Assembly (NCBI RefSeq): GCF_036997485.1
Contig: NZ_JAWLPU010000004.1
Location: forward strand, 124,001 to 188,000
DNA: 64,000 nt
Source of the DNA: Brachyspira pilosicoli
GTDB taxonomy: Bacteria; Spirochaetota; Brachyspiria; Brachyspirales; Brachyspiraceae
Direction of reading: 5' to 3'
Shown here piece by piece: positions 35,585-40,516 of this stretch. Position numbers and translations under genes: made by a program. Every line of letters begins with the position of its first letter. Position 1 is the stretch's first letter. The notes under the pieces are model-generated. The model was not told the origin of the DNA, made no database searches, and saw only the letters and a list, made by a program, of their open reading frames with translations.

Positions 35585-35895
35585 GATTAACACTCCGTAG
35601 TTTGATACTATTTATTAATAAAAAATTATTATTTTTATGTGTATTTTGTAAAATCTCGCTTATTTTATTACTGTATAAAGAATTAAAATAAGATGATAAC
35701 AGCAAAATATATTTACTGAATATTTTTACAACAAAAATTATATTGCAAAATGTTATATTTTTCAAGTATTTTTTGTATATTTGCATAGATTTATGTTAAT
35801 TGTAAAAAATAATATTTTATATTTTACATAAAATTTACATTAATCTGTATCTTATGTGTAATATGTATTATATATTATTTATAAAAGGATGTTTA

Positions 35896-35983
35896 TTGTA
35901 AATTTATTGTAAAATAATTGTAAAATTATATTGACAAAACTCCTCCTTTGACTATAATTATAATTGTAAAGATAATTTACAAT
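35896..35983 (+). promoter_or_regulatory. Promoter with 11-bp-spaced direct repeats and leader palindrome
   Basis: Three copies of TTGTAAA start at 35896, 35907 and 35918, an exact 11-bp period. The -35 box TTGACA (35931-35936), 16-bp spacer and -10 box TATAAT (35953-35958) follow. Just downstream ATTGTAAA (35963-35970) and TTTACAAT (35976-35983) form a perfect 8-bp inverted repeat with 5-bp spacer. A further TTGTAAA lies at 35800-35806. The layout fits an activator of the OmpR/PhoB type, which binds heptamers at 11-bp spacing next to the -35 box. Confidence 0.65.
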
Positions 35984-36001
35984 AACTCGACGGAGGTCAA
36001 T

Positions 36002-36379
36002 ATGAACGCTAAATTACAACTCTCTATAAAAATAACCCCTAGTAAATTGCCTGAAAATGCTAGAAGATTAATAGAATTTTACTTCCATAATGCAAAAATA
36101 ATATATATAGATAAAATTAACGATGAATATGAAGTAAAATTATCTAACGGAACTTATATTGATTTTGATAAAAATGGTAATTGGAATTATATAAGCAGCG
36201 ATGAGGATATAAGAGAAAATATACTTCCAAAATCTATATCAAATTGTGTAAAAAATATTATGAAAAAATATAAAGGCGCTCATATATATGAAATAAATAA
36301 AAGAATAAATTTTTATAGAATAAAATTAAGCAATTCTATAGATTTATGTGTAAATTACAGGGGAGATTTATTAGCTTAA
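36002..36379 (+). CDS. PepSY-like protein, two tandem repeats, no signal peptide
   Basis: 125 residues from the ATG at 36002, set by the strong CGGAGG site; an in-frame start upstream would run through the promoter. Two PepSY-like units are visible: repeat 1 (LPENARRLIEFYFHNAKI with YEVKLSNGTYIDFDKNGNW) and repeat 2 (LPKSISNCVKNIMKKY with FYRIKLSNSIDLCVNYRG). Such proteins are usually exported, but here no signal peptide is seen, so a cytoplasmic location is inferred. Repeat 2 has diverged most in the beta-hairpin. The dense promoter suggests tight control. Confidence 0.72.
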   Translation: MNAKLQLSIKITPSKLPENARRLIEFYFHNAKIIYIDKINDEYEVKLSNGTYIDFDKNGNWNYISSDEDIRENILPKSISNCVKNIMKKYKGAHIYEINKRINFYRIKLSNSIDLCVNYRGDLLA

Positions 36380-38026: not shown

Positions 38027-38382
38027 TAAACTATTTTTTCAATTTTTAATATCTATAGAGTATATCATATATTTTTATATAAACATAATATTTTTTCATT
38101 TATAATTACTTTTTATATCGTATTTGTTATAATCCAATTTTTTATTAGACAGCATATTTTTATTTTAATATATTTTTGAACTGTATAGCAGTATAATTAG
38201 TTTTGTTATAAATTTATTGTATAGATAGATATCATTTTTTATAAAATTACTTTTATAATAATAGTTGTTATTTTGATATTTTTCTAATATTTTTTTATAA
38301 CTTTACTATCTTTTTTATTAATATTGAGTATTAGTGTACATTGATATATAATAACAAAGATATTAATAAAAGAGGTTGTTTT
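38027..38382. other. 356-bp intergenic region between tilS and the ankyrin gene
   Basis: Very AT-rich, divergent promoter region for tilS (minus) and the ankyrin gene (plus). I see no gene, hairpin or repeat that I can support. An AGAGG site precedes the plus-strand ATG at 38383. Confidence 0.4.
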
Positions 38383-39543
38383 ATGAAAAAGAAGATATTA
38401 TTTATATTGATAATTGCAATTTCATCGCTTTATTCCAAGAGCAATAATGAGAAAATAAATAGTTTATTAATTACAAATGAAATAATAAAGCCTAGCGATG
38501 AATTATTAAGCTTATTAGAAAAGAATAAAAATAAAACAGGTGTTGCTGAAATAATAGAATTAATAAATGAGGGCGGTATAAATGCTTCTTCAAAAGGCGA
38601 GATTATTATAGGCGATGTTACCCACTATCCTAATTCTACTCCTTTAATGATAGCTTCATCATATAATCATTACAATATAGCAAAAGCTTTAATTGATAAT
38701 GGGGCTTTGGTTAATTTAAGAGCAGGCGATGGATTTAATGCTTTAATGGAAGCTGTAAGAACTGGCAATATAGAAATAGCAAAATTACTAATAGAACATG
38801 ACTCTGATTTAGATATAAAAAATAAAGACGGAAAAAATATGATTATGATTGCATGCGAAAAGGGTAATGAAGAGATGTTTAATCTATTAATAGAAAACAA
38901 TGCAGATATAAATGCAAAATCATCTTGGGGAGCATCTGCACTTATTTATGCTTCTGAAAATGGAAATCTTAATATAATGCAATATTTAATAGATAATGGA
39001 ATAGATGTTAATGGAAAAGCCGATGATAATGGGGATACTCCATTACTTTGGGCTGTTACAGGACAAAATCCTTATGAAGCTTCAAAACTTTTAATAGAAA
39101 ATGGTGCCGATGTAAATGCTACAAATGATAGCGGAGTTGCTCCTGCTACTATACTTGCGGCGTCTACTCCAAAAGTAGTAAAGCTTTTAAAAGATAATGG
39201 TGCTGATTTAGATACAAAATTTCTAGATTATTATCCTCCTATAGCAATTGCTGCGGGTGCGGGTAATTTAGAAATAGTTAAGGCATTAGTTGAAAATGGG
39301 GCTGATGTGAACTATTATCCTAATGATATAAACTATACTGCGATATTTCATGCTATAGACCAACATAATTATGAAGTTGCTGAATATTTATTTAAAAATG
39401 GAGTGGATTTAAATATAAAAATGAAACCTGATAATGACTATGGCAGAAGTATAAAAGAAAGCTACAATGTTTTAGAATATGCCGAGGCTATTAAGGATAA
39501 AAAAATGATTGATTTAGTAAAAAAATATTATAAGAAAAAATAA
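38383..39543 (+). CDS. Exported ankyrin-repeat protein
   Basis: 386 residues from the ATG at 38383 with AGAGG upstream; an in-frame TTG 42 bases earlier is rejected. Signal peptide MKKKILFILIIAISSLYSKS. After a short N-terminal domain there are about eight ankyrin repeats of 33 residues (for example DGFNALMEAVRTGNIEIAKL and LLIENGADVNATND). Ankyrin repeats bind proteins; with export, the targets would be periplasmic or outside the cell. It is the first of three ankyrin genes in this window and is followed 115 bp later by a second. Confidence 0.85.
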   Translation: MKKKILFILIIAISSLYSKSNNEKINSLLITNEIIKPSDELLSLLEKNKNKTGVAEIIELINEGGINASSKGEIIIGDVTHYPNSTPLMIASSYNHYNIAKALIDNGALVNLRAGDGFNALMEAVRTGNIEIAKLLIEHDSDLDIKNKDGKNMIMIACEKGNEEMFNLLIENNADINAKSSWGASALIYASENGNLNIMQYLIDNGIDVNGKADDNGDTPLLWAVTGQNPYEASKLLIENGADVNATNDSGVAPATILAASTPKVVKLLKDNGADLDTKFLDYYPPIAIAAGAGNLEIVKALVENGADVNYYPNDINYTAIFHAIDQHNYEVAEYLFKNGVDLNIKMKPDNDYGRSIKESYNVLEYAEAIKDKKMIDLVKKYYKKK

Positions 39544-39595
39544 ATATTTTATTTTCTACTAAATATAATCAATGAAATCTAAAATAAAATCTAAG

Positions 39596-39625
39596 TTGAC
39601 AAAATATACCGCTACAATGTATAAT
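39596..39625 (+). promoter_or_regulatory. Promoter of the second ankyrin gene
   Basis: TTGACA (39596-39601), 18-bp spacer, TATAAT (39620-39625). AGAGG ribosome-binding site before the ATG at 39659. Confidence 0.65.
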
Positions 39626-39658
39626 CAAAAAATATAATACATAATTAAAAAGAGGTTT

Positions 39659-40516
39659 ATGATGAAAATATTATGGATTATTATAATTAGTTCGTACATT
39701 GCTTATGGTCAGGTAAGTGAAGATTTTAAGAATTTAGCGGCAACAAATAAAGAATCAGCATTATACAAATCAGTAGTATCAGAAAATATTGATGAGTTTA
39801 AATACATAATTGAAAACAATAAAGAATATATAACTTATTCTATAGCGAACAGTGAAACATGGTATAACTATATACCTAATTTAAGCACTAATAATTTCTC
39901 TAATTTCGTAAAGGTTTTATTAGATAATGGAATGGATATTAATGAGAAAAATGAAGAGGGAAAAAGCCTTATACTTGATATAAGTAAGTACTACAATTCA
40001 CTTCATAAACCTAAATTCGGTACAAGTGAAATTATAGGAGTTCCAGATAGTAAATATAAAATTGAAACACTTATAAATCTTGGAGCAAATATTAATATAC
40101 AAGATAATGACGGAAATGGTATAATTCACTATATACTTTCTAGAGATAATATAGGAACAGAAGAATATGATATTATTGAAATGCTCATAAAAAACTCAGT
40201 CAATATTAATTTACAAAATAATGATGGAGATACTGCACTTCATAAAATTTCATATAAAAAAAATAATGAGTATAGAGATATTGATATGGAAAAAAAAGTT
40301 GCCTATCTTTTGATAGAAAATAATGCAGATAAAAATATAAAAAATAATAATGGAAAAAAAGCGTATCCCGGTATATTTTATAATACAAAATTAATTTTTA
40401 CTGGAATATTTAGTACTTTATTTAATATTTTTAAGATTGTACTTCTAATTGTAATTGGTATACCTGCATTAATATTACATTTTATAGTTTTTAATATTTC
40501 AGAATTTTTCAGATAA
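39659..40516 (+). CDS. Exported ankyrin-like protein with C-terminal membrane segment
   Basis: 285 residues. Signal peptide (KILWIIIISSYIAYGQ), then roughly four degenerate ankyrin units: VLLDNGMDINEKNEEGKS, LINLGANINIQDNDGN, MLIKNSVNINLQNNDGD and LLIENNADKNIKNNNGK. A long hydrophobic segment closes the protein (about residues 242-275), likely anchoring it in the inner membrane with the repeats outside. It is a probable diverged paralogue of the preceding ankyrin gene. There are two adjacent ATG codons at the start. Confidence 0.78.
   Translation: MMKILWIIIISSYIAYGQVSEDFKNLAATNKESALYKSVVSENIDEFKYIIENNKEYITYSIANSETWYNYIPNLSTNNFSNFVKVLLDNGMDINEKNEEGKSLILDISKYYNSLHKPKFGTSEIIGVPDSKYKIETLINLGANINIQDNDGNGIIHYILSRDNIGTEEYDIIEMLIKNSVNINLQNNDGDTALHKISYKKNNEYRDIDMEKKVAYLLIENNADKNIKNNNGKKAYPGIFYNTKLIFTGIFSTLFNIFKIVLLIVIGIPALILHFIVFNISEFFR

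Follow-up and report, generated by a model that had tools for sequence, protein, structure and literature searches.

The window, a 64,000-nucleotide stretch of Brachyspira pilosicoli DNA, contains a short PepSY-like gene preceded by three copies of TTGTAAA, and raises the question of whether this arrangement is peculiar to one promoter or belongs to a wider control circuit, and of which protein would read it.

Promoter layout and conservation

The initial annotation had described three direct repeats beside a -35 box and a palindrome after the -10 box, and direct reading of the bases bore out the position of every one of these elements (Table 1). Six bases separate the end of the array from the -35 box, the spacer between the -35 and -10 boxes is 16 bp, and a GGAGG ribosome site near 35992 precedes the ATG at 36002. 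The window thus holds a direct-repeat promoter, defined by two or more copies of one half-site that face the same way at 10-11 bp spacing and adjoin the -35 box. With up to three mismatches allowed in the 21 positions, 0.04 arrays were expected per window, while the one observed was exact. A check for further arrays, which the initial annotation had proposed, found no second TTGTAAA-N4-TTGTAAA pair at 11-bp spacing outside this array in the 2.72-Mb genome. Relaxed matches in the same genome, such as that at C1:156797 (TGTAAATTGAATGTCAAG...), recur across species and were set aside as a poor fit to the repeat pattern.

Table 1. Positions of the promoter elements and genes discussed in the text (window coordinates unless a contig or locus is given)
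Feature	Position	Strand	Remarks
Two TGTAAA half-sites, TTTACATAAAATTTACA	35823-35839	-	11-bp spacing; exact in the window
ATGTAT direct repeat, ATGTGTAATATGTATTA	35854-35870	+	9-bp period; conserved upstream element
Array of three TTGTAAA	35896-35902, 35907-35913, 35918-35924	+	11-bp steps, read from the sequence; predicted activator site
-35 box TTGACA	35931-35936	+	Read from the sequence; TTG kept in all homologues but L013
-10 box TATAAT	35953-35958	+	Conserved among homologues
Palindrome ATTGTAAA-GATAA-TTTACAAT	35963-35983	+	Spans the predicted transcription start
PepSY-like protein gene (PF11396), 125 aa	36002-36379	+	Open reading frame and profile match
Regulator gene (PF00486)	G000:C2, L048:7721-8404		Window's genome
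Convergent pairs, PepSY-like paralogue and ~750-aa gene	G009:C1:1601201-1602219, G016:C1:3049352-3050719, G013:C2:1411714-1412731		Examples; equivalents elsewhere

Conservation was assessed at 24 homologous loci that were selected by protein similarity alone (about 58-100% identity), without use of the motif. The palindrome core TGTAAAGAKAWTTTACA (17 bp) directly follows the -10 box in all 24 with at most one mismatch, and the 11-bp TGTAAA array precedes the -35 box at nearly fixed spacing in 23, the GTAAA repeats of these 23 being placed at -67, -56 and -45 relative to the palindrome, give or take one base. Absence of the array upstream of orthologues had been named as the observation that would speak against the initial proposal, and the opposite was decisively found. 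Each GTAAA keeps its G, while the spacers between the repeats vary. Among the deviating loci, the outermost repeat has decayed to ATAAA in L023, and in L033 the second TATAAT is gone and the repeats lie 6 bp closer to the palindrome. Since the first TATAAT of L033 is still 16 bp from TTGACA, this locus helps to fix the identity of the -10 box.

Two elements absent from the initial annotation lie further upstream. By comparison of promoters, ATGTRTWATATGTATTA is a third conserved element, located about 110 bp upstream of the palindrome (nearly all copies at -109 to -111) and matched at 14 or more of 17 positions in 21 of 34 non-redundant promoters, against 1.4% in shuffled sequence. The other is a minus-strand TGTAAA pair, which about eight of the 34 carry at -135 to -142 relative to the palindrome.

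PF11396 proteins are usually secreted or periplasmic, a feature that is not strictly defining for the family, and a signal peptide was present in most of the PepSY-like family members examined. The initial annotation had described the window's gene as a 125-residue PepSY-like gene lacking a signal peptide, and both parts of this description held up. The product matched the PF11396 PepSY_like profile with an E value of 1.2e-20 and 74 bits, above the gathering cut-off of 28.3, and its subfamily has no hydrophobic N-terminus; the most hydrophobic N-terminal 12-residue stretch scored 0.43 in the window's protein versus 2.5-2.9 in secreted paralogues. The open frame comprises only 126 codons in two orthologues, too few to accommodate a hidden leader as well. 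The window's protein appears, as predicted from its sequence, to be cytoplasmic. Elsewhere in the window, positions 38341-40516 hold two adjoining genes whose products are ankyrin-repeat-like.

Array-bearing genes across the genus

A survey of 26 Brachyspira genomes for the triple array with up to one mismatch returned 120 matches in 23 genomes, with none in G006, G010 and G031; the reversed control pattern was nearly absent from the same 26 genomes. At least 94 of the 120 matches directly precede a PepSY-like gene and share its orientation, compared with roughly 0.1 expected from a rough chance estimate. Much of the remainder belongs to genes for PopT/DUF368, by its sequence an undecaprenyl-phosphate translocase-like protein. 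Most PopT/DUF368 promoters of the genus have repeats before the -35 box and no palindrome, and the PopT promoter in the window's own genome carries repeats with altered spacing. Ten other PepSY-like genes of this genome were examined; three (L037, L038 and L040) have repeats adjoining the -35 box, L039 has a mixed form of direct and inverted repeats and L041 has a variant of the palindrome alone. These results support the array as a conserved regulatory site, while the initial view of a single gene proved too narrow for an arrangement that serves several genes and includes more upstream elements.

At many PepSY-like promoters throughout the genus, TGTAAAGATAATTTACA lies 39-40 bp downstream of the array. 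The initial annotation had placed the palindrome right after the -10 box, and its conservation at the predicted start agrees with this; what that account did not contain is that the two elements are separable. The palindrome occurs without the array at L082 and L041, and the array occurs without the palindrome at PopT, so that they are probably distinct inputs. Palindrome matches at L068/L069, where no -10 box or gene start follows, and at L084, with no gene behind it, were rejected, as was a lytic transglycosylase considered as a target, which had array-like matches in two species but no conserved counterpart before the gene in others.

Several individual loci were also recorded. In many species an array-bearing PepSY-like paralogue is convergent with a gene of about 750 aa containing an SLT-like transglycosylase stretch (Table 1), a neighbour that hints at a cell-wall role. 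Two GTAAA repeats directly precede a TTGACT -35 box at L118:1040-1237 (G000:C3:246539) and L119:1675-1870, upstream of a gene for a predicted lipoprotein (the L118 copy without a Pfam match); this arrangement is conserved in two pilosicoli-group genomes and is a possible further target. At L124:942-1227 (G033:C5) the gene behind a complete array and a near-palindrome seems not to be PepSY-like, and the promoter may have lost its original gene. In a distant species (L087:500-2400, G031:C1:2395400-2397300) tandem PepSY-like domains or genes lie behind one array, and similar tandem repeats of the domain are present in G032, G034 and G036. Three small genomes from another genus of the phylum (G076, G082 and G123) also contain the exact triple array, one copy apiece.

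Candidate regulator and comparable systems

Exactly one OmpR/PhoB-type response regulator (PF00486) was found in each of the 26 genomes, which makes the candidate activator unique within that class. This, together with the conserved 11-bp array beside the -35 box, agrees with the OmpR/PhoB-type layout proposed in the initial annotation. The regulator gene is followed by a large kinase-type gene in the three species examined, and the kinase of the window's genome has HisKA and HATPase domains and is PhoR/WalK-like. The DNA-binding domain of the regulator resembles those of RegX3, SaeR, MtrA, WalR and PhoB, and its recognition-helix region METRTIDMHIKSIRQKL is identical across the three species compared. 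Scores against curated models were 201.3 bits for PhoB (cut-off 296.2) and 177.7 bits for YycF/WalR (cut-off 340), and the MtrA cut-off was not reached either, so the regulator is named as none of these; the kinase likewise scored 245.7 against WalK (cut-off 725). In three species, no array within three mismatches was detected in 16-17 kb around the regulator's own genes. Since none of the 26 genomes lacks the regulator, not even the three with no array within one mismatch, co-loss lends no support to the assignment.

A close parallel in the DNA is WalR/VicR (YycF) of Firmicutes, with the consensus TGTWAHA-N4-TGTWAHA; the paper on it gives as a general rule that activation comes from sites upstream of the -35 box and repression from sites that extend to +1 (PMC4168254). 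The window repeats, read as TGTAAAT, TGTAAAA and TGTAAAA, match the core TGTWAH-N5 exactly, and two of the three also have A as the seventh base. The two systems share this word, the 11-bp direct repeats and a cell-wall theme, but the Brachyspira promoter adds a third repeat and an inverted copy at +1, and the system differs in its spirochaete host, its target genes and a regulator that falls short of the YycF model. The Pho box of PhoB (CTGTCAT-N4-CTGTCAT) is similar in its 7+4-bp direct repeats and OmpR-family protein; PhoB also gives the best NCBIfam score of the Brachyspira regulator, and the kinase is closest to PnpS/PhoR. Unlike the Pho box, however, the Brachyspira word has TGTAA in place of TGTCA, the regulator is below the PhoB cut-off, and no phosphate genes were seen among the array targets.

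PepSY proteins have been tied to two-component systems before. In the DbfQRS system of Vibrio cholerae a single PepSY gene lies beside the kinase gene, and its product, DbfQ, acts on that kinase and restrains it (PMC12714742), whereas Brachyspira has many dispersed PepSY-like genes with a common promoter and the window's protein is apparently cytoplasmic. In Porphyromonas gingivalis a gene for a PF11396 (DUF2874) lipoprotein is located beside the two-component system HaeSR; the likeness concerns adjacency only, as the parts of that report consulted describe no common repeat architecture (PMC3764172). Our literature search returned no paper dealing with both Brachyspira and PepSY and, among work on Brachyspira regulons and response regulators, none describing such a circuit. 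Nearly the same promoter arrangement precedes many related genes in almost every Brachyspira species examined and points to a common, apparently undescribed control circuit. The motif ties PF11396, an expanded family whose function is not known, to the envelope physiology of these intestinal spirochaetes, and with its strong conservation, defined targets and single candidate regulator of that class it allows a concrete and cheap test.

Proposed mechanism and alternative readings

The window promoter is probably one member of a Brachyspira-wide set under common control of the sole OmpR/PhoB-type regulator. The adjacent PhoR/WalK-like kinase would phosphorylate the regulator, which would then bind head-to-tail on the three TGTAAA repeats (about -68 to -40 relative to the predicted start) and assist RNA polymerase at the adjoining -35 box; we infer this binding from the class of the regulator, the layout and its uniqueness. 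TGTAAA-N5-TTTACA at about +1 to +17 would most likely be a further DNA site whose occupation holds the promoter back, the occupant being either the same regulator, when abundant, or a different factor. Activation through the array, repression through the palindrome and the sharp switch that the initial annotation expected are all predictions. As the targets are mainly PepSY-like genes, most of them for secreted products, together with PopT/DUF368, a cell-envelope response is suggested, most likely one with PepSY-like feedback. A fuller reading, which we put forward tentatively and consider rather unlikely as a whole, is that one OmpR-type regulator, throughout the genus, reads a single half-site word, with the direct triple array for activation and the inverted pair at +1 for shut-off, and so controls the expanded PepSY-like family; the form without a signal peptide may then feed back on the two-component system from inside the cell, and undecaprenyl-phosphate recycling would be co-controlled.

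The palindrome might instead act as RNA, in the form of a 5'-terminal transcript hairpin that gives the mRNA protection or modulates its translation. The 21-nt segment folds with -4.4 kcal/mol (z -6.1), begins at the predicted +1 in almost every homologue and keeps its pairing via G-U in two variants. Yet the hairpin is weak, its loop is conserved as well, a pair is broken in several variants, and the compensatory changes expected of a stabilising hairpin were found in none of the 24 homologues. A related inverted pair, TGTAAA-N5-TTTAC, is moreover conserved upstream of the -35 box, where it is presumably not transcribed, in the L039 promoter and three orthologues. Because this pair and the lack of compensatory changes both point to recognition as DNA, a DNA site is favoured with some confidence, and the RNA role appears doubtful.

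The identity of the protein on the array leaves room for a regulator of another family, which may bind the palindrome too. The recurrence of TGTAAA in direct and inverted orientation could suit some dimeric repressors, but three head-to-tail repeats at 11 bp just before the -35 box are the typical layout of the OmpR/PhoB family and their word and spacing match WalR/VicR, which leaves this option a little less probable still than the RNA hairpin. It is very unlikely that the repeats aid polymerase directly, with no dedicated protein, as a bent or AT-rich upstream element: the genome is AT-rich and phased A-tracts do adjoin the -35 box, but such an element would not account for the conserved G amid varying spacers, for the near absence of the equally AT-rich reversed pattern or for the strong restriction of the array to PepSY-like and PopT genes. 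The least probable explanation of the likeness is that recently duplicated genes took their promoter with them. The PepSY-like genes are indeed paralogues; however, those at about 35% protein identity keep the palindrome and its spacing despite variable leaders and -35/-10 spacers, and PopT, which is unrelated, bears the array.
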